A stretch of DNA of 64,000 nt from an uncultured SAR116 cluster alpha proteobacterium (GTDB taxonomy: Bacteria; Pseudomonadota; Alphaproteobacteria; Puniceispirillales; Marisalimonadaceae), in NCBI GenBank assembly GCA_902589185.1, contig CACIRZ010000001.1, positions 1 through 64,000 on the forward strand, read 5' to 3'. Every line of letters begins with the position of its first letter. Within the stretch, counting starts at the first letter, position 1. A model generated the notes under the pieces. It ran no database searches. It was not told the origin of the DNA and saw only the letters and a program-made list of their open reading frames with translations. The translations under genes and the position numbers were made by a program. Positions 35,567-48,400 of this stretch are shown here, in pieces.

Positions 35567-36424
35567 TTATAACTTTGGTGCTGCAATCACTGGGTTTTTT
35601 AAGACTCCTAATAACCCGATATCAACTTCAACAATATCCCCTGGAACCATATATACAGGTGGATTCCTTTTATCTCCAACACCACCAGGAGTGCCTGTTA
35701 CAATCACGTCTCCAGATGATAATGCAGTAAATTCTGAAATATAACTAATTAATCTTGGAATTGGAAAAATAAGATCAGCTAATGTAGCTTTCTGCATTAT
35801 ATTTCCATTTAATCTTAATTCAATTGGTAGCTTTCTATAATCACCCACTTCACTTGGTGTAACTAAAAAAGGTCCAAATCCGCCTGTACCTGGAAAAGTT
35901 TTTCCTGGGGTAAATTGAGAAGTGTGTCTTTGATAGTTTCTTACACTTCCATCATTATAACATGTATAACCAGCAATATGATCTAGTGCCTCTTCTTCAG
36001 ATATAAACCTACCACCTTTACCTATAACGATTGCCATTTCAGCTTCATAATCAAAACGGTCAGAATTGTCGGGTTTGATTAAAGGTTGCAAGTGAGCAAC
36101 TTGAGAGTCCGCAAACCTTGTGAAAATTGTTGGGTTATCAACATCAGGTCTCCCAGTTTCTTTTTTATGTTCTAAATAATTTAACCCAATGCACATAATT
36201 TTTTCTGGATTTGGAATTACAGGTAAAAAAGTAAAATCTGAAAAAGATAAATCTTTTGTTTTACCTGCAATATACTCTTCTGCTTCATTTTCCATATTAA
36301 GTGAGATTAATTCTTTAATAGAATTAATTTCTGGATCTAATTTGCCAGTAAGATCAACAATTCCATCTTTTACAACTGCTCCAAAACCTGTTTTTCCTAA
36401 TCTAGTAAAACTTAGTAATTTCAT
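35567..36424 (-). CDS. fumarylacetoacetate hydrolase family protein
   Basis: KIMCIGLNYLEHKKETG, TIFTRFADSQVAH, DYEAEMAIVIGKGGRFI, VIVTGTPGGVGDKRNPP; start MKLLSF at 36424 with upstream RBS. Confidence 0.93.
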   Translation of the reverse strand: MKLLSFTRLGKTGFGAVVKDGIVDLTGKLDPEINSIKELISLNMENEAEEYIAGKTKDLSFSDFTFLPVIPNPEKIMCIGLNYLEHKKETGRPDVDNPTIFTRFADSQVAHLQPLIKPDNSDRFDYEAEMAIVIGKGGRFISEEEALDHIAGYTCYNDGSVRNYQRHTSQFTPGKTFPGTGGFGPFLVTPSEVGDYRKLPIELRLNGNIMQKATLADLIFPIPRLISYISEFTALSSGDVIVTGTPGGVGDKRNPPVYMVPGDIVEVDIGLLGVLKNPVIAAPKL

Positions 36425-36437
36425 TTTATTTCCTCTC

Positions 36438-37280
36438 TTAAGATCTCCTAATTGCTTTTCCCCATAAATTGAGGGTTCTTTCTTCTTGAGGCCAGTTCTT
36501 TGGCGGTCGACCAATTACCGTTTCCAATTCAGCTGATATTTCTATCCAATTTCCATCAATATCTTCGATAAATACGAATAAATTATTTCCTGGACCATGT
36601 CTACCAGGACCCCACATCAATTTTACATTATTTTGAGCAAAATGATCACACCATGTTTTTATATTATTCCATTCACCAGCTTCATATGAGTGATGATCCA
36701 TTCCATTTTGTGATGATTTAAAACACGCAATTGTGTGATGTTCGTGATTAGATGTTGTAAAACAAGTTGCAAGTTCACCAGTGCTTTTTATTACTCTGTC
36801 GGTTACTTGAAACCCAAGTTTTCTTTGATAGAAGTTTTGAAACCTTTCAACGTCTTTAGATGCAAAAGTTAGATGCTGTAATGGTGCATGAATACTTTTA
36901 GTGTAAAAATTATTTTCTTTTTTTTGAACACCAAGACAAATCATATTATTATCAGGATCTTGCAATGAAAAAGATCCTGATTGATAAAATTCTGAAACAA
37001 AGTCATTGATTTCACATTTATTTATTTTTAAAAATTCTTTATACCTCTCTAAATTTTCTTCATTTTTACAAACCATTCCTGCATAGCCGAGTGTATTGTT
37101 TTTCCCTGTTTTTATTATTATTTTACGACCAGGTCCCTCACACAAAAACTTTTGATTTGTCAGCCTATTTATCTTCATATCCATTACATTTGAATAAAAT
37201 TCAGCTAATCTTTTTGGATCACGACTTTCAATTTCAAGATGATTTAATGAAATATTAGCTTGAACAGCATCTAGGGACAT
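36438..37280 (-). CDS. VOC-family / type I extradiol dioxygenase-like protein
   Basis: two VOC repeats; candidate metal ligands in LQHLTF, GMDHHSYE, NWIEIS. Confidence 0.85.
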   Translation of the reverse strand: MSLDAVQANISLNHLEIESRDPKRLAEFYSNVMDMKINRLTNQKFLCEGPGRKIIIKTGKNNTLGYAGMVCKNEENLERYKEFLKINKCEINDFVSEFYQSGSFSLQDPDNNMICLGVQKKENNFYTKSIHAPLQHLTFASKDVERFQNFYQRKLGFQVTDRVIKSTGELATCFTTSNHEHHTIACFKSSQNGMDHHSYEAGEWNNIKTWCDHFAQNNVKLMWGPGRHGPGNNLFVFIEDIDGNWIEISAELETVIGRPPKNWPQEERTLNLWGKAIRRS

Positions 37281-37284
37281 TTAT

Positions 37285-38067
37285 TTACCTCATTGAATTT
37301 GTTTCATGATGATACTTTTGAATATCGTCAAAAATTTCATTAATATATTTTTCTACTAATAAACCGTAAGTCGTAAGATTAGCATAAATTATAGGCTCAT
37401 GCTCTAAAAGAAAATCATCTAAATTAAATATTGAACTTAGAGACGCTACAATGCCCAATTTTTTATTACTGATTGAAACTGCAAAACCAATGAGACCTTT
37501 ATCTACTTGACCTTCTGTAAAACAATATCCTTTTTTTCTGTCATTTTTTAACTCTTTCAAAAAATTAGTTTTATCTTCATCTGATTTAAAATTTTCTAAA
37601 TTAATTAAATTTTCTAATCTTTTGCCTGTAATTTGCATAATTATTGCCCTGGAAGTTGCACCGTATATTAAAGGCATCAATTTACCTCTTTGATAACTTG
37701 TATTTTTTTTAAAAGTTGGACTTTTGTAATCAGCAACACACATCACATTATTTCCGTAGAGTCTTGCTAAAACGTTAACACTTGTTATAGGATTTTCATT
37801 AGCTAGTTTTTTTAAAAATGGTTGTCCTGCTCTAACCAAAGGATCAGAAAAATTAATAATTCTATTAAATTTAATGAATGCCGGACCCAATCTAAAATAA
37901 GATCCTGAAGCACTTTCAAGAAATTCTGCTGTGACCATTTCTCGCACAATTCTATATATTGTACTAGATGGTGTTTTAAGTGATTTTGAAATTTCCAAGA
38001 CAGTCCAAAAACTTCTCTCTTCAGAGAAAAGATCTAAGATTTTTTTATACCTTTGAAAACCAGACAC
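37285..38067 (-). CDS. IclR family transcriptional regulator
   Basis: RYKKILDLFSEERSFWTVLEISKSLKTPSSTIYRIVREMV HTH; GKLMPLIYGATSRAI; KKGYCFTEGQVDKGLIGFAVSI. Confidence 0.92.
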   Translation of the reverse strand: MSGFQRYKKILDLFSEERSFWTVLEISKSLKTPSSTIYRIVREMVTAEFLESASGSYFRLGPAFIKFNRIINFSDPLVRAGQPFLKKLANENPITSVNVLARLYGNNVMCVADYKSPTFKKNTSYQRGKLMPLIYGATSRAIIMQITGKRLENLINLENFKSDEDKTNFLKELKNDRKKGYCFTEGQVDKGLIGFAVSISNKKLGIVASLSSIFNLDDFLLEHEPIIYANLTTYGLLVEKYINEIFDDIQKYHHETNSMR

Positions 38068-38075
38068 CTTTATCC

Positions 38076-39542
38076 CTATGAAGAAAAAATTTGATTGAGA
38101 TAAAAGCGAGAAAAATCTTTTAAGTCATTTTTATCTGTACTAGCAAGAACAAACCGATCAGGTCGAATAATTAAGCTATTTGAATTAAATTTTTTTAAAA
38201 TTATTTCTATTTCCGGTATATCAATTGTACTGTAAGTTCTAATTTTTAATTTATTTTCACTTACCTCCTTATTTGTAATTAAGATTGGATGACATGAAAA
38301 TAAATCATCAAATTCTTTATTAAAATTAATTTTTAGATATGGAACAATTTTACCTCTATTTTTATCATCCTTATTACCTAATCCTTTTCCAAGTTTCGGC
38401 TTTATACTATTCATTTTTATTGTGCCGTCTTTTTCCTCATAAACAGTGTCTGACACCTTTGATCCACCAATTGAATTAAGTAGCTCACCCATCTTCATGG
38501 CAGTATTTATATAATCTTTCACATTTGAAGATCTCTCACTTTGATAAGTATCAAGTAATTTTTCATTATGACCTTTTTTACAACATATGTTAATTTTCCA
38601 AGCTAAATTAGATGCATCTCTAATTCCAGCACACATTCCTTGCCCCATAAATGGCGGTGTCAAATGAGCAGCATCTCCAACTAAAAATTGACGACCTATT
38701 CTCCATTTTTTTGCAATTGCTGATTGAAATGTATAGACAGTTTTTCTTTCAATCCTTGCTTCATCCTGAGACACCCATTGACTTAAAAATTTCCAAAGTG
38801 TTTTACTATCAAAAAAATTTTCTACACTTTCTTCTTCTTTTAGAGCTATTTCCCATCTTCTTCTTTTTCCTACATTTCTGCAGTATGTGGCTGGTCTTTT
38901 TGAGTTGCAATATTGTATTGTTCTATCTGGCAAATTTGTTTTTTTTGTTTTTAAAATTAAATCTATTACAGCCCAACGTTGTTCGAAACCTAGATGTTCC
39001 ATTTCACTTTTAATTTGCTTCCTTAGAAAAGAGTTAGCACCATCACAGCCAATTACATATTTAGACTTTACAGAAAAAATCTGTTTGGTTTTTAAATTTT
39101 TGTATTGAATTATTGAATAATTTTTATGACTGATAGTTTTATATACTTCAGAGTTTTGGGAAATAATTACCTTTTCAAATTTTTTTAATTTATGACGTAG
39201 GCTTCTTTCTAAATCAGGTTGATGAAACCTATAACTAGGATACCATCCATTTTCTGTAATAACTTTTGGTCTTGGCCAATCAAGAAGAAGGTTACCTTTT
39301 TCATCAACAAATTTTGTTCCTTTATTAATAATTAATTTTTTTGTTAAACTTTTAGTTATCCCAATTGTATTAAATACTCTCATAACTTCATCATCAAAAT
39401 GAACTGCTCGTGGAAGATTATATATACTTGCTTCTTTTTCTAAAACTAGAATAGATAAATTGTTCATAGCTAAAAGATTAGCTAATGTACCTCCTGCAGG
39501 ACCTAATCCAATTATAACAACATCAAAATCTTGAGTACTCAT
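38076..39542 (-). CDS. FAD-dependent aromatic hydroxylase (MhpA-like)
   Basis: VVIIGLGPAGGTLANLLAMNNLSILVLEKE; VIGCDGANSFLRKQI; FLVGDAAHLTPPFMGQGMCAGIRDASNLAWKI. Confidence 0.93.
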   Translation of the reverse strand: MSTQDFDVVIIGLGPAGGTLANLLAMNNLSILVLEKEASIYNLPRAVHFDDEVMRVFNTIGITKSLTKKLIINKGTKFVDEKGNLLLDWPRPKVITENGWYPSYRFHQPDLERSLRHKLKKFEKVIISQNSEVYKTISHKNYSIIQYKNLKTKQIFSVKSKYVIGCDGANSFLRKQIKSEMEHLGFEQRWAVIDLILKTKKTNLPDRTIQYCNSKRPATYCRNVGKRRRWEIALKEEESVENFFDSKTLWKFLSQWVSQDEARIERKTVYTFQSAIAKKWRIGRQFLVGDAAHLTPPFMGQGMCAGIRDASNLAWKINICCKKGHNEKLLDTYQSERSSNVKDYINTAMKMGELLNSIGGSKVSDTVYEEKDGTIKMNSIKPKLGKGLGNKDDKNRGKIVPYLKINFNKEFDDLFSCHPILITNKEVSENKLKIRTYSTIDIPEIEIILKKFNSNSLIIRPDRFVLASTDKNDLKDFSRFYLNQIFSS

Positions 39543-40513
39543 TTTTTACTGATATTTTGATACAACCACGGACAATCAATTATCATAGGTGATCTTTTAC
39601 CTTGCTGAGCAGTTTCAATACGTTTTATTCTAAACTTTAATCTTTCATCATCAGGTAAATATAATCTTTCATGCCCCCAAAAACTTGGACCTTCGTTTGT
39701 TTCATGAGGAACCCATGTAGTAGGATTGATAATTCTACCACCCCATCCATTTTCAATAAAAAAACCTGAAGGAGTGTGTGCATAAAAAGAAGTCATATAA
39801 TCGTTTGTGTGTCGACCCAAAGTGTAAGCTATTCCATTTTTATGGTTATATTGGAGTAAATCATATCCTTGCCCAACATCATCTAAGTTTTTATATTCTA
39901 CCATAAAATGATGAAATCCTTGTTGACCACTTCCAATTAGAGCGAAGCTATGATGGCGACCATTAACATGAAAAAAACATAATGAAATTGGATCAAAACT
40001 ATAATCACTTATTTTGAAATCTAAAATATCTCTGTAAAAAGGAATTAACATATCAACATTAGATACATGTAAAACTGCATGACCAAGTCCACAAACGTCA
40101 GTCTTAAATCCAGAAATTGGTCTTCCCGGGACAAATGGGCTATTATCAATATGAGGCCTATAAACAAGTTCAATTCTATTTCCTAACGGATCATCAAAAT
40201 ATATTAATTCATCAACAAACCGCATATCAGTAAGATTTTTATCACCTTCGAAAACTTCTATTCCAGTGTCTTCCAACTTTTTGGCATATTTTTGAAGATC
40301 TGATTTTTCTTCTACTTCCCACCCAAGGAAAGCAAGTTTGTCACCAGGTTCACCAGAGATTGTGAATCTTTGTTTTTGATCATCCATACGGAAAAACAAA
40401 GATTTTTTAGAATAATCAGTTTTTTGCATTCCTAGGTTCTTAGTCGCAAAGTCTTGCCACTCTTCGATTTTATCTGAATTAACTCCAATATAACTCAAAG
40501 CATTGATCGACAT
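39539..40513 (-). CDS. type I extradiol dioxygenase (BphC-like)
   Basis: GLGHAVLHVSNVD..., GRHHSFAL, GFHHFMVEYKNLDDVGQGYD, LGRHTNDYMTSFYAHTPSGFFIENGWGG; start MSINAL. Confidence 0.93.
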   Translation of the reverse strand: MSINALSYIGVNSDKIEEWQDFATKNLGMQKTDYSKKSLFFRMDDQKQRFTISGEPGDKLAFLGWEVEEKSDLQKYAKKLEDTGIEVFEGDKNLTDMRFVDELIYFDDPLGNRIELVYRPHIDNSPFVPGRPISGFKTDVCGLGHAVLHVSNVDMLIPFYRDILDFKISDYSFDPISLCFFHVNGRHHSFALIGSGQQGFHHFMVEYKNLDDVGQGYDLLQYNHKNGIAYTLGRHTNDYMTSFYAHTPSGFFIENGWGGRIINPTTWVPHETNEGPSFWGHERLYLPDDERLKFRIKRIETAQQGKRSPMIIDCPWLYQNISKK

Positions 40514-40548
40514 AAAATAAATCCTAATTAGAGACTTATTAAATAATA

Positions 40549-40561
40549 TATCATTTTGATA
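40549..40561. promoter_or_regulatory. candidate operator 2: TATCA-TTT-TGATA
   Basis: 13-bp palindrome in the divergent intergenic region. Confidence 0.45.
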
Positions 40562-40583
40562 AAAAAACAATAATTTTTTAAAA

Positions 40584-40604
40584 GAATTATCATATTATGA
40601 TAAT
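40584..40604. promoter_or_regulatory. candidate operator 1: perfect 21-bp palindrome
   Basis: AATTATCATA-T-TATGATAATT. Confidence 0.65.
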
Positions 40605-40710
40605 TAGTAATAATTTTTTAAAATTAGAATTTGATTTATATAAATATCTAGTTAATGATTTAATATTACATAAATTAAAATTATTTAAAATTTTATATGG
40701 AGGAATATTA

Positions 40711-41745
40711 ATGAATAAATTGATTGGCGTAGTAGCGACAACAATTATCAGCGCTGGATTATCATTTTCAGCACTAGCTGATAAAGTTACTTTAAAATTT
40801 CACACTATGGTCCCAATGCCAGCAAATTCAAATGCTAAATTTGTTAAACCATGGGCTGACAAAGTAAAAAAAGAAAGTAATGGAGAAATTATTACTGAAA
40901 TGTATCCTTCAATGCAGCTTGGAGGGAAACCACCACAGCTAGTTGATCAAGCTCGTGAAGGTGTTGTAGATATTGTTTGGACTGTTGCAGGTTATACTCC
41001 TGGAAGATTTCCAAGGTTATCAGTTTTTGAATTACCTTTCATGCCAACAAGCGCAAAAATCACAGCCCAAGCTGTTCAAGAATTTGTAGAAACCTCAGGT
41101 GCAGAAGATCTTAAGGATTATAAAATTCTTGCAGTTCACGTTCATGCCCCAGGTATGATACACACTAAAAAAACATTGATTAAATCAGTAAGCGATTTTA
41201 AAGGTCTTAAGCTACGAGGTCCAACTCGTTCAGCAACAAGTTTATTAAAAAAGTTGGGAGCCACTCCTGTTGGTATGCCAATACCAAAAGTTGCTCCTTC
41301 TTTGTCAAAAGGTGTTATAACAGGAATGGTTGTTCCATGGGAGATAATGCCATCTTTTAAACTTCAAGAGTTAACTAAATCACATACCAACGTAGCAGGT
41401 AATAGAGGGCTTTATACAACTCCATTTCTATTTGTCATGAACAAGGCAAAATACGATTCATTATCACCAGCTCATAAAAAAGTTATCGATAATAATTCTG
41501 GAATGTCCCTAGCAAGGCAAGCTGGAGTACTATGGGATGATTTTGAAGGACCTGCTCGTGAATTAGCAGTTAAAGCTGGAGGCGAATTTCATACTTTAAG
41601 TGGAGCACCTCTGGCAGAGATAAAAAAAGCAGCAGATCAAGTTATTCAAGATTGGATAAAAGATGCTAACAGTAAAGGTCTGGATGGACAAAAACTTTAC
41701 GATACTGCGAAATCTCTTATTAAAAAATACGAAAAAAAATTATAA
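40711..41745 (+). CDS. dctP: TRAP transporter substrate-binding protein DctP
   Basis: start MNKLIGVVATTIISAGLSFSALA after GGAGG; FKGLKLRGPTRSATSLLKKLGATPVGMPIPKVAPSLSKGVITGMV. Confidence 0.93.
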   Translation: MNKLIGVVATTIISAGLSFSALADKVTLKFHTMVPMPANSNAKFVKPWADKVKKESNGEIITEMYPSMQLGGKPPQLVDQAREGVVDIVWTVAGYTPGRFPRLSVFELPFMPTSAKITAQAVQEFVETSGAEDLKDYKILAVHVHAPGMIHTKKTLIKSVSDFKGLKLRGPTRSATSLLKKLGATPVGMPIPKVAPSLSKGVITGMVVPWEIMPSFKLQELTKSHTNVAGNRGLYTTPFLFVMNKAKYDSLSPAHKKVIDNNSGMSLARQAGVLWDDFEGPARELAVKAGGEFHTLSGAPLAEIKKAADQVIQDWIKDANSKGLDGQKLYDTAKSLIKKYEKKL

Positions 41746-41760
41746 TTCCATTATAATATA

Positions 41761-42291
41761 ATGTTTTTTTGGAAAAAAATTATTTCATCTAAAATACGTC
41801 CAGATAATCAATTTGGACGTATTTTAAATTTTATCTCTAGATATTTTGCAATTTTCGGTGGCTTTATTCTTTTAACAGCTGCTTTAATTAGTATTTTTTC
41901 GATTTTTGGAAGAGTAGTATTCTCATCTCCCATTTTGGGTGACTTTGAACTAGTAGAAATTGCTTGTGCAGTTGCTATTGGATCATTCTTACCATTATGT
42001 CATCTTAAAAATGGAAATGTTATTGTAGATTTCATAACTGCCAAACTTTCCAAAAATAAAATTAATTTATTAGACTCTATTAGTTCTCTAATATTTGGTG
42101 TAGTGGCTCTGTTCTTTACTTCTCGCATGATTTTAGGAGCAAGGGATATGTACGTTTATCAAGAAGAAACTATGCTTTTAGCATTTCCTATTTGGTTACC
42201 TTTTTTACCTGTAATTGCTTCTTTTTTTCTTCTAACAATTTGTTGCCTTTATACATTCATAATTAAAATTAACCTCATAATAGGAAAATAA
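41761..42291 (+). CDS. dctQ: TRAP transporter small permease DctQ
   Basis: 4-TM; SIFGRVVFSSPILGDFELVEIACAVAIGSFLPLCHLKNGNVIVDF. Confidence 0.9.
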   Translation: MFFWKKIISSKIRPDNQFGRILNFISRYFAIFGGFILLTAALISIFSIFGRVVFSSPILGDFELVEIACAVAIGSFLPLCHLKNGNVIVDFITAKLSKNKINLLDSISSLIFGVVALFFTSRMILGARDMYVYQEETMLLAFPIWLPFLPVIASFFLLTICCLYTFIIKINLIIGK

Positions 42292-42295
42292 TTTT

Positions 42296-43612
42296 ATGGA
42301 TAAATTTACATTAGGCATTATTGCTTTTCCTATTTTATTTTCTATGCTTGCACTAAGAATGCCAATCGGTTTAGCTATGCTAATAGTTGGTTGTTCAGGT
42401 ACTATTATAATAGCTGGATGGCTTCCAATTTTATCTCAAGTTAAAACTAGCGCATGGCATTTATTTTCTAATTATTCTTTATCTGTCATTCCACTATTTT
42501 TATTAATGGGAAATTTTGCTGGTAAAGCTGGTATGAGTGAAGCACTTTTTAAATTTACTGGGGCTTGTCTAGGCCATAGAAAAGGTGGAGTTGCAATGGC
42601 AGCAATTGGTGCTTGTGCAGGATTTGGAGCTATTTGTGGATCATCACTAGCAACAGCCGCTACAATGGGTAAAGTTGCACTTCCTGAACTAAGACGATTA
42701 GGATATTCTGGAGCTCTAAGCACAGGAACTCTAGCTGCTGGTGGAACTTTAGGGATATTAATTCCACCATCAGTTATATTAATAATCTATTCAATTTTAA
42801 CAGAACAAAATATTGCCAAAATGTTTTTAGCTGCCTTCATTCCTGGTATTCTCGCTGCTTTGGGATACATACTTGCAATCGCATTATATGTTAGATTTGT
42901 AAAGGAATCTGGACCAACCAAAGAAAGGGTTGGGTGGAAAGAGAGATTTTCTTTATTTAAGGATATATGGCAGATAATTCTAATTTTTTTAGTGATGATA
43001 GGAGGTATTTATTTAGGTTGGTTTACTCCCACAGAAGGTGGTGCTATCGGTGCAGGTGGAGCTGGTCTAATTGCAATTTCTAATAAAAATTTTAAATTTA
43101 AAGACTTGGTTGAAGTAATTGAGAGCACTGCAATTACTTCTGCTATGATATTTTTAGTGCTTTTAGGCGCAGAATTTTTCAACTCATTTATAGCATTAAC
43201 ACAACTTCCAAACCAATTAGGAGAGATTGCATTAAAAAACAATCTCTCACCTTATCTAATTGTAGCATGTATTCTTGTTTTATATCTGTTATTGGGCTGT
43301 TTGATGGATAGCTTGGCAATGATTTTACTTACAATACCAGTTTTCTTTCCTTTGATAATGACATTGGATTTTGGGATGTCTGCTGAGGAAACTGCAATAT
43401 GGTTTGGAATATTAACACTTATTGTCGTAGAAGTAGGATTAATTACACCTCCAGTTGGATTAAATGTTTTTATTATTAATAAGATGGCAGGTGATGTAAG
43501 TATTGCTGAAACTTTCAAAGGAGTTTTACCATTTTTATTTAGCGATATTTTAAGAGTAATATTATTGTTTTCATTTCCAGGCATCACATTATTTTTATTA
43601 AAAGTATTTTAA
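42296..43612 (+). CDS. dctM: TRAP transporter large permease DctM
   Basis: ALRMPIGLAMLIVG, AGFGAICGSSLATAATMGKVALPELRRLGYSGALSTGTLAAGGTLGILIPPS. Confidence 0.94.
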   Translation: MDKFTLGIIAFPILFSMLALRMPIGLAMLIVGCSGTIIIAGWLPILSQVKTSAWHLFSNYSLSVIPLFLLMGNFAGKAGMSEALFKFTGACLGHRKGGVAMAAIGACAGFGAICGSSLATAATMGKVALPELRRLGYSGALSTGTLAAGGTLGILIPPSVILIIYSILTEQNIAKMFLAAFIPGILAALGYILAIALYVRFVKESGPTKERVGWKERFSLFKDIWQIILIFLVMIGGIYLGWFTPTEGGAIGAGGAGLIAISNKNFKFKDLVEVIESTAITSAMIFLVLLGAEFFNSFIALTQLPNQLGEIALKNNLSPYLIVACILVLYLLLGCLMDSLAMILLTIPVFFPLIMTLDFGMSAEETAIWFGILTLIVVEVGLITPPVGLNVFIINKMAGDVSIAETFKGVLPFLFSDILRVILLFSFPGITLFLLKVF

Positions 43613-43613
43613 G

Positions 43614-43859
43614 ATGAATCAAGATAACAAAAAATATTTATGGAAGTTAATCCAACTAACTGGAGATAGTTTAATTAATAAATTACCAGATCATCCAAAT
43701 CATCCTAATGGAAGAAACCCCTATGCTCACGTTGCATTAAAAGTAAAAAACAAGTTTGGAAAAAGCTATAAAGATCTTCTTGACGAGAAAGTTCATGAGG
43801 TCATTAATTATTTAAATATATTGAAACAAACTGAGGGAGATACAAAAAACTTACATTAA
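43614..43859 (+). CDS. conserved-looking 81-aa soluble protein, unknown function
   Basis: starts 1 nt after the dctM stop; HPNHPNGRNPYAHVALKVKNKFGKSYKDLLDEKVHEVINYL. Confidence 0.75.
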   Translation: MNQDNKKYLWKLIQLTGDSLINKLPDHPNHPNGRNPYAHVALKVKNKFGKSYKDLLDEKVHEVINYLNILKQTEGDTKNLH

Positions 43860-43988
43860 TGACATCTAATTTTTTAAAAATTTCTACTAGCTAAATTTTA
43901 AATTTTTAATTTGTTAATCATTTAAATTTGACTAATCTTACTTAATAAGCTTATCTAAATTTTTAATCTATTACTTAGGGGAAAATAT

Positions 43989-45029
43989 ATGAAAAATTTA
44001 AAAAGAATGTTTGCCGTTTTCCTAATGGTTCTGATGTCAAATTTTTTGGCGAACCTTGTTCTTGCTAGTGTAGACGGCCCTAGTGTTTTTTGGAAGTATA
44101 GTCTATGGGGAAAAAGACGTGCATTTACTGAGGGTGCAGAAACTTTATCTAAAAGACTTGCAGAGGAAACTGGTGGTAAATTTAAACTAAAAATTTTCTA
44201 TGGTGGCCAATTGGCAAAATCAAGAGAAAATTGGGATGGTTTGAAAGCTAATTCTTTTGAAATGGCAACTGTTTGTAACTTTTATCATCCAAAGAAAAAC
44301 CCAGGTTTAATGGCGTTAACACTTCCATTTTTACCACTTGGACAAAGCTTTGACAGAGATGCAAAATTAAGACAAGCAGTCTACGATCATCCAATACTAA
44401 AAAAAGAAGCATCAAAATTTAATGGTATATATTTTATGACTTCAAATTTACCACAATATGAATTTATGGGTAAGGGAAAGCCACCATTAAAACTTTCTGA
44501 CTTTAAAGGATTAAGAGTTAGAGCTGGTGGTGGTGTTGGAACAGCAATGGTAAGATTAGGGGCTACAAAAATGTCAGTTCCTGCGCCAGAGACATATACA
44601 CTTATTGCTAGAGGTGCAGTTGATGCTGTATCATTTCCATTCACTTATGCTCATGCTGCTTACAAAATTGATGAAGTAGCTGATTGGTATACTGCAAACT
44701 TGTCTCCAGGGACATCAGATTGTCCATATGTAATGAATATGCAAGCCTACAATAAACTTCCAAAACAATATCAAAATTTGTTAAACAGTCTTCGCGGTGA
44801 AGCTTTAGAATCTCTTAAAGCTGCATACAAGAAAGCTGATGATAAAAATTTACCTGTTTGGAAGAAAAAATTCACAGAGATTAGATATGATAATAAAACC
44901 CTCGCTGAATTTAAAGCAAAAGTAGGTAAGCCGATTTGGGCTGAATGGGTTGCTGCTAACAAGGATCAATTTGATGCTCAAGCAGTATTAGACGTCATTC
45001 TTAACTTTAAATATTCAAATGTAAATTAA
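43989..45029 (+). CDS. dctP: TRAP transporter substrate-binding protein DctP
   Basis: signal peptide; LSDFKGLRVRAGGGVGTAMVRLGATKMSVPAPETYTLIARGAVDAVSFP. Confidence 0.93.
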   Translation: MKNLKRMFAVFLMVLMSNFLANLVLASVDGPSVFWKYSLWGKRRAFTEGAETLSKRLAEETGGKFKLKIFYGGQLAKSRENWDGLKANSFEMATVCNFYHPKKNPGLMALTLPFLPLGQSFDRDAKLRQAVYDHPILKKEASKFNGIYFMTSNLPQYEFMGKGKPPLKLSDFKGLRVRAGGGVGTAMVRLGATKMSVPAPETYTLIARGAVDAVSFPFTYAHAAYKIDEVADWYTANLSPGTSDCPYVMNMQAYNKLPKQYQNLLNSLRGEALESLKAAYKKADDKNLPVWKKKFTEIRYDNKTLAEFKAKVGKPIWAEWVAANKDQFDAQAVLDVILNFKYSNVN

Positions 45030-45040
45030 TATACAAATAG

Positions 45041-45072
45041 AAACATGTGTGTAATTCTTTACACACATGTTT
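45041..45072 (+). terminator. intercistronic hairpin downstream of dctP
   Basis: perfect 13-bp stem AAACATGTGTGTA/TACACACATGTTT, 6-nt loop ATTCTT; no strong T tract. Confidence 0.75.
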
Positions 45073-45088
45073 TATCTTAGGATTTAAA

Positions 45089-45655
45089 TTGTTAGATTTA
45101 TTTAATAAAAAACTAAGCAAAATTGAAAATTTTCTTGTTTTATTTGTTGGAATTTCGATTTTCATTGTGATGATTTTAACATCCATCCAAATTATATCTA
45201 GAGTTGTTGGCTATCCTTGGCCTGCATTTTTAGAATTATCAGAATTAGCAATTTCAATTTTTGCTTTTCTAGGAGTTGCTTTTGCTCAAAGAATGGATGC
45301 TCACATTCGTATGGAACTTCTTGTTGCAAATTTAAAAGGAAGAATTAAATGGATAATTGAGTTTATTGCTACATTTTGTGCATTCATAGTAATAGGTATC
45401 CTAATATATTATAGTAGTTTATTTGCTATAGACGCTTATGTGATTGGTGACAGTACAATGGATTACTTATTTCCTACGTGGCCAGCAAAAATTTTAGTTC
45501 CAATAGGTTTTAGCATTTGGTTTTTAAGACTGTTTTTAGAATTAATTGGCTATTTCAGATTAGCTATAAATGTTAATGCTGAACCAATGTATGTACCAAT
45601 TATTAAAACAGCAGAAGAATTAGCAAATGAAGAAATTAAATCAATAAGAGAATAA
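45089..45655 (+). CDS. dctQ: TRAP transporter small permease DctQ
   Basis: likely TTG start (MLDLFNKKLSKIENF); IQIISRVVGYPWPAFLELSELAISIFAFLGVAFAQRMDAHIRMELL. Confidence 0.88.
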   Translation: MLDLFNKKLSKIENFLVLFVGISIFIVMILTSIQIISRVVGYPWPAFLELSELAISIFAFLGVAFAQRMDAHIRMELLVANLKGRIKWIIEFIATFCAFIVIGILIYYSSLFAIDAYVIGDSTMDYLFPTWPAKILVPIGFSIWFLRLFLELIGYFRLAINVNAEPMYVPIIKTAEELANEEIKSIRE

Positions 45656-45656
45656 T

Positions 45657-47066
45657 ATGATTTTTGAAAAATTACTTCAGGGACAACCTGAAGGAATATT
45701 TGGAATTGGTTATAATGACCCTTCGACTGTTGGTATTATTTGTACAATAATTCTACTAGTCTTAGTTGTCTGCGGTGTAAGGGTTGTAATTGCGGCAAGT
45801 ATTGCAGGTATGATTGGTCTAGTTGAATTGATAGGTATCGGTCCAGCACTAGGTAATATTGGTGCAATACCATATTCAAAATCAGTTACTTTTGTACTTG
45901 GATTACTACCAATATTTATTTTAATTGGATTTTTAGCTTACCAAGCAGGTATAACTAGACAATTGTTTGAAGCGGCAAAAGCTTGGGTAGGTTTTGTTCC
46001 AGGCGGTCTTGCAGTTGCAACTGTTTTCGCTACTGCAGGTTTTGCAGCTGTTTCAGGAGCTTCCACAGCTACCGCTGCCGTTTTTTCACGAATAGCAATA
46101 CCTGAAATGTTAAAGGAAGGTTATGATAAAAAGCTTGCTGCTGGTGTTGTTGCTGCAGGTGGAACTCTAGCTTCATTAATTCCTCCATCTGCAATTTTAA
46201 TTATTTACGCTATAATTGTTGAAGAATCAGTTGGTGCCTTATTATTAGCTGGATTTTTACCAGGTGTTTTTTCAGCACTTGTTTACGCATTAATAATAAT
46301 TCTTTGGGCTAAAAAGAATCCTCAATTAGGACCACCATCTAGGAGATACACTCTTAATGAAAAATTAAGAACATTACCAGGAATAATTCCTATTGCTCTA
46401 GTCATCTCTGTTATCATTAGTGCCATATATGCCGGTTGGGCAACCCCAACTGAAGCAGGCTCCTTAGGAGCTTTTGTAGTTTTATTAATGGCTATTTATA
46501 ATAAAGTGAAAGTTTCAGCACTTAAAGCAGCTTTGATTGAAACTGCAAAATTAGTTGCGATGATTTTTTCTATAATATGGGGTGTTCTAATATTTGTAAG
46601 ATTTTTAGGATTTTCAGGACTTCCTGAGGATTTTGCCAATTGGATCATTTCATTACCATTAGATCCATATGTAACCCTTTTGCTAATTTTACTTGGATAC
46701 GTCATCCTTGGAATGTTTATTGATGCAATTGGACTATTATTACTAACACTACCTGTTGTTTATCCCGCTGTAATGTTGTTGAATGGTGGTCCAGATGTCA
46801 CCGCTGCAGAAAGTGCATTTGGAATGACTTTTAATCAGGTGAGTGTGTGGTTTGGGATAATAGTAGTTAAAATGGCAGAAGTCTGCCTGATTACGCCACC
46901 TATTGGATTGAATTGTTTTGTAGTTGCAGGTGTAAGAAAAGATATACCCGTTACTGACGTGTTTAAGGGTGTAACGTTATTTTTCATTGCAGATATTTTA
47001 ACAATATTAGGCCTTGTATTATTTCCACAAGTAATCACATGGCTTCCAGACTTAATGATGTCATAA
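45657..47066 (+). CDS. dctM: TRAP transporter large permease DctM
   Basis: FAAVSGASTATAAVFSRIAIPEMLKEGYDKKLAAGVVAAGGTLASLIPPS. Confidence 0.94.
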   Translation: MIFEKLLQGQPEGIFGIGYNDPSTVGIICTIILLVLVVCGVRVVIAASIAGMIGLVELIGIGPALGNIGAIPYSKSVTFVLGLLPIFILIGFLAYQAGITRQLFEAAKAWVGFVPGGLAVATVFATAGFAAVSGASTATAAVFSRIAIPEMLKEGYDKKLAAGVVAAGGTLASLIPPSAILIIYAIIVEESVGALLLAGFLPGVFSALVYALIIILWAKKNPQLGPPSRRYTLNEKLRTLPGIIPIALVISVIISAIYAGWATPTEAGSLGAFVVLLMAIYNKVKVSALKAALIETAKLVAMIFSIIWGVLIFVRFLGFSGLPEDFANWIISLPLDPYVTLLLILLGYVILGMFIDAIGLLLLTLPVVYPAVMLLNGGPDVTAAESAFGMTFNQVSVWFGIIVVKMAEVCLITPPIGLNCFVVAGVRKDIPVTDVFKGVTLFFIADILTILGLVLFPQVITWLPDLMMS

Positions 47067-48373: not shown

Positions 48374-48400
48374 TGGGCTTAAGGTTTAACCTTAAGCCTA
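48374..48400 (+). terminator. hairpin between substrate-binding gene and livG
   Basis: GGCTTAAGG-TTTAA-CCTTAAGCC (9-bp perfect, extendable by a G-T and T-A pair) then TTTTATT. Confidence 0.8.

Follow-up and report, generated by a model that had tools for sequence, protein, structure and literature searches.

The mhp system of E. coli resembles the present locus in that its IclR regulator, MhpR, adjoins a meta-cleavage pathway and a monooxygenase of the MhpA type; the two differ in gene content, transporter and operator. For the group-1 IclR operators, the core is described as YCRYW3RYGR, and aromatic and DctPQM genes are named among the IclR regulogs (Suvorova and Gelfand 2021, PMC8222616). 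A literature search on aromatic uptake in SAR116 returned nothing on the present locus, which lies in the window (the whole stretch of 64,000 nucleotides that was analysed) from a member of the SAR116 cluster; the named relatives that carry the locus belong to this cluster as well. Here, a ring-cleavage operon that includes an IclR gene diverges from a TRAP transporter operon, and the region between them contains a palindrome, denoted site B, that is a candidate operator of the encoded regulator.

Gene content of the divergent locus

Relatives from the SAR116 cluster keep the order FAH-dioxygenase-IclR-monooxygenase-dioxygenase, divergent from dctPQM (see the table), and IclR orthologues are found in identical gene order in other members of the genus and also in a single genome from a sister genus. 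The leftward genes are tightly packed, no gap being longer than about 14 bp, and the IclR gene is the third of them, as the earlier note had placed it; when the genes of the cluster were profiled, no further regulator gene was found. The FAD monooxygenase scores 492 bits against NF004829 (cut-off 390). The ATG of the ORF track for dctP, at 40597, indeed falls within the palindrome, and the start preferred in the earlier note, 40711 with the ribosome-binding site GGAGG at 40699-40703, is borne out by the alignment of both start and ribosome site in 26 of 26 loci.

Features of the locus (positions in the window; + rightward, - leftward)
Feature	Coordinates	Strand	Comment
Fumarylacetoacetate-hydrolase-family (FAH) enzyme	35567..36424	-	
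Extradiol-dioxygenase-like protein no. 2	36438..37280	-	
IclR-family regulator, predicted site-B binder	37285..38067	-	HTH_IclR and IclR_C
FAD monooxygenase, MhpA-like 3-(3-hydroxyphenyl)propionate hydroxylase subfamily	38076..39542	-	NF004829
BphC-like extradiol dioxygenase, leftward operon gene 1	39539..40513	-	
Putative leftward promoter	40543..40570	-	-35 TTGTTT 40570-40565, 16-bp spacer, -10 TATTAT 40548-40543
Site A, TATCATTTTGATA	40549..40561	.	between -35 and -10 of the putative leftward promoter
Site B, 21-bp palindrome, probable IclR-dimer operator	40585..40605	.	core TCAT-ATT-ATGA 40590-40600
Block C, TTTGATTTATATAAATATCTAGTTAATGATTTA	40630..40662	+	top-conserved stretch of the region; putative dctP promoter
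dctP, TRAP solute-binding protein	40711..41745	+	start supported by ribosome-binding site
dctQ, TRAP small permease	41761..42291	+	
dctM, TRAP large permease	42296..43612	+	

The IclR protein contains the HTH_IclR domain (PF09339, 25.8 bits, gathering score 22) and the IclR_C effector-binding domain (PF01614, 26.7 bits, gathering score 24). The nearest NCBIfam model is that of the PcaR/PcaU/PobR subfamily, TIGR02431, which the protein fails (60.4 bits against a cut-off of 284.75); among solved structures, the closest counterpart by sequence is a regulator of the Pca regulon. In one relative (G018), the recognition helix differs (PSSTIYKIVSEM), and the contig of this genome stops short of site B.

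Several features of the wider neighborhood deserve mention in their own right. The second TRAP operon (43613-47066) is variable (the relatives concerned are L038, L054 and L057), and some relatives possess a substitute second TRAP operon with a dctP identity of only about 46%. An inverted repeat with 14-bp arms (AAACATGTGTGTAA..TTACACACATGTTT) at 45041-45072 overlaps the GTG that is listed as the start of the second dctQ, a start that is therefore probably wrong, and a perfect inverted repeat with 11-bp arms lies between livK-like and livG-like genes at 48376-48398. In the genus of G047, the cluster contains an extra gene (L103, 5023-5862) that, judged by eye from its sequence, resembles an intradiol ring-cleavage dioxygenase.

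Palindromes, conservation and genomic distribution

Site B (AATTATCATATTATGATAATT) has perfect 10+1+10 symmetry (AATTATCATA-T-TATGATAATT); the earlier note had recognized this inverted repeat and set it at 40584-40604, one base to the left of its actual position, 40585-40605. Site A (TATCATTTTGATA) lies at 40549-40561 and shares the TATCA/TGATA half-sites with site B, both as claimed, and the distance between the two centres, at 40555 and 40595, is 40 bp rather than about 39. The half-sites are separated by 3 bp in site A and by 5 bp in site B, so that the geometry of a bound dimer would differ between the two. A+T makes up 89% of the intergenic region. From dinucleotide shuffles, one expects 0.9 palindromes per 64 kb that have arms of at least 10 and a spacer of 0-3 (two are observed), and a palindrome with arms of at least 10 appears in 4-6% of shuffles of the intergenic region, which makes symmetry alone weak evidence. 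A scan for symmetry ranks site B fourth among 442 centres. The earlier note had asked whether equally good palindromes arise at chance frequency: shuffles do produce the like of the single palindrome at the frequencies given, whereas the pair of sites is unusual, TATCAN3-5TGATA being present in 0.4% of shuffles of the region. At the level of sequence, it is conservation, rather than symmetry, that decides the case for site B.

Footprinting was based on 26 intergenic regions, namely, that of the window and those of 25 relatives in which an IclR gene accompanies the same divergent arrangement. Of these regions, 12 contain the degenerate motif TTMTYAT-N3-ATRAKAA without mismatch (0.2% in shuffles) and 20 contain it with at most one mismatch (4.7% in shuffles), a scoring that is partly circular because the motif was derived from the sequences being scored. 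Mean identity is 0.82-0.84 in the half-sites compared to 0.66-0.72 in the adjoining spacers, and site B holds a fixed place in the relatives with an IclR gene; it is degenerate in one five-genome clade in which the IclR gene is intact. Changes are matched between the half-sites in L038, where TATCAT..ATGATA becomes TCTCAT..ATGAGA, and in L063, which reads TTCTTAT..ATAAGAA. Covariation measures over the eight pairs counted in site B are no higher than in column shuffles, and the true register outscores all slid registers in the same test. Upstream of dctP in L045 (G012), a deletion of about 18 bp takes the right half of site B and the IclR gene is intact. The phylogenetic footprinting that the earlier note had suggested finds site B conserved and site A, as a palindrome, not conserved.

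A natural contrast is provided by 14 loci that have the same TRAP genes but lack an IclR gene in the cluster: 13 include the divergent dioxygenase, and the other is the second copy in G031. The site-B motif is matched in these loci with 3-4 mismatches at best, as in shuffles; within one mismatch, it is found at 20/26 loci with IclR and at 0/14 without it. Block C, a 33-bp segment described below, is likewise absent from all 14 (9-12 mismatches). The co-occurrence of site B with the IclR gene, which is correlative, is the main argument for the IclR protein as the putative binder. This argument is weakened because the presence of IclR largely follows phylogeny, most of the IclR-less loci coming from other genera; in addition, the operons without IclR have diverged further overall. 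The sole contrast within a genus is between G044, with IclR, and G041, without it. In G041, the whole operon is diverged (dioxygenase identity to the window is 68%, compared to 78%), so that a joint exchange of operon, regulator and operator may have taken place.

Two of the IclR-less loci show features of their own. Upstream of dctP in G041 (L101), the operon has a different palindrome, AGGGATATTATCCCT, possibly the operator of another regulator. The second dctPQM copy of G031 (L100, G031:C71) is divergent from the FAA-hydrolase gene and comes without the ring-cleavage genes or the palindrome of site B.

Pattern searches, on which all genome-wide statements here are based, identify 8 sites of the strict motif TTMTCATWWWATGAKAA in 40 genomes of the genus, 7 of which are at the present locus and the eighth of which is inside an ABC-transporter gene; the reversed control has 0 matches in the same genomes. 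In the genome of the window, TTMTCATWWWATGAKAA is unique, and the nearest other matches are unrelated. A relaxed 19-bp motif yields 21 strand matches, the same number as its control, and 11 of its 17 distinct sites are at the present locus. When a regulon beyond the locus was sought in this way, matches with at least two mismatches were plentiful, and the two off-locus matches inspected (L163, with one mismatch, and L165, with two) are beside or inside unrelated genes. Given that TTMTCATWWWATGAKAA is nearly confined to the locus, site B appears to be a local rather than a global operator.

The strongest conserved feature of the region, which the earlier note overlooked, is block C (40630-40662). 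It is more conserved than the palindrome, with 28 of 33 columns at 96% or higher in the 26 loci; within it, TTTGATTT and AGTTAATGATTTA show little or no variation. Block C is unique in its own genome and includes two copies of TGATTTA, 24 bp apart. It is probably the dctP promoter, to judge from a putative -35 TTGATT (40631-40636), a 17-bp spacer and a putative -10 AATGAT (40654-40659), both weak hexamers, and perhaps includes a further operator. The -10 of the putative leftward promoter reads TATAAT in some relatives. A consensus promoter scan listed neither of the two putative promoters, both of which were read by eye from the sequence or alignment. A role of site A as a second operator is not supported: site A is a perfect palindrome in only 3/26 loci, its spacing does not suit the IclR core, and it overlaps the probable leftward promoter. 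The TTGATAA half of site A is widely conserved.

With respect to the described consensuses, the core of site B matches the group-1 YCRYW3RYGR in 11 of 11 positions, better than any other stretch of the region does (shuffle p 0.014); among the 25 relatives, the core is perfect at this position in 7 and has at least one mismatch in the others. Compared to WTT-11-AAW, site B fits in 15 of 17 positions, the mismatch being at the symmetric positions 3 and 15. Site B does not show the outer positions of any of the four group-1 subgroups, and the group-2 consensuses do not fit it.

Candidate roles of site B and block C

These observations make it fairly probable that the local IclR regulator has a single operator, site B, which lies upstream of both divergent promoters and couples uptake to ring cleavage. 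The earlier note had taken both palindromes for IclR operators coordinating these functions, a proposal that is supported for site B, which is conserved, linked to IclR, nearly confined to the locus and compatible with the core, and that is not supported for site A. Here, we infer the binding of IclR to site B, and likewise the ligand, the sign of regulation and where the promoters lie: the regulator dimer would read TTATCAT-N3-ATGATAA, centred near -59 of the putative leftward start and -71 of the putative dctP start, between the divergent promoters and overlapping neither core promoter. Since site B is clear of both putative core promoters, the regulator would most likely switch both operons together, presumably in response to an aromatic ligand, and the IclR gene itself would come under the same control. 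A position off both promoters suits a shared activator, and the regulator probably acts as one.

Under a variant that differs in the sign of regulation, IclR at site B would repress both operons, through looping, wrapping or contacts between a tetramer and half-sites in the promoters, and would be released by an aromatic ligand. Many IclR proteins are repressors, PheR represses both uptake and catabolism (PMC13273656), and TGAT half-sites are also present in site A and twice in block C, all in favour of this variant, a less probable one; the palindrome, however, overlaps neither putative core promoter, and conservation does not extend to site A as a full second operator. It appears rather unlikely that site B is the operator of a different regulator encoded elsewhere, with the local IclR protein acting elsewhere or on block C only. 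The clade L056-L061, which retains IclR and block C yet has a degenerate site B, and the deviation of positions 3/15 from the IclR consensus are compatible with such a regulator, but none was found in the cluster, a global one should have more sites whereas the strict motif is nearly confined to the locus, and the loci without IclR are also without site B. Still more doubtful is a combined arrangement in which block C is both promoter and direct-repeat IclR recognition element, so that a tetramer would link palindrome B to the promoter; if true, it would fall outside the two described IclR motif groups.

The remaining readings dispense with a bound protein. Chance in very A+T-rich DNA, which does yield palindromes with such arms in 4-6% of shuffles of the region, is an improbable source of a site whose position and motif are fixed across relatives and that is nearly confined to one locus in 40 genomes. 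That the palindrome acts in the dctP leader as a hairpin, of RNA or of DNA, is highly improbable: a 9-bp stem can form (-5.6 kcal/mol, z about -2), but it is weak, nearly all A-U and mismatched in many relatives, and the best promoter candidate is downstream of the palindrome. The RNA hairpin and terminator readings were rejected. Site B, read as the operator of the local IclR regulator, is a specific, testable candidate for the aromatic-degradation and TRAP-uptake locus of SAR116, and the predicted link between transporter and pathway helps to assign the TRAP substrate. Otherwise, these features suggest ordinary bacterial gene regulation, with site B as an ordinary IclR-type docking site.

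Comparison with described IclR operators and regulators

Like the group-1 WTT-11-AAW operators, site B is an odd-length palindrome with the regulator gene in the catabolic operon beside it; unlike them, it has A/T or C/G rather than T/A at positions 3 and 15, and it is single, whereas a tandem partner at 18-22 bp is common among them (PMC8222616). The locus shares with PobR, PcaU and PcaR the divergent arrangement with aromatic genes, and the model of these regulators is the closest in NCBIfam, but site B does not match the GTNCG-N5-6-CGNAC operators of that group (PMC8222616). PheR of Sphingobium differs in being a repressor with a GC-rich operator over the transcription start and in serving TonB rather than TRAP uptake; the predicted organization is nevertheless similar in that a single IclR regulator coordinates uptake and ring oxidation (PMC13273656).
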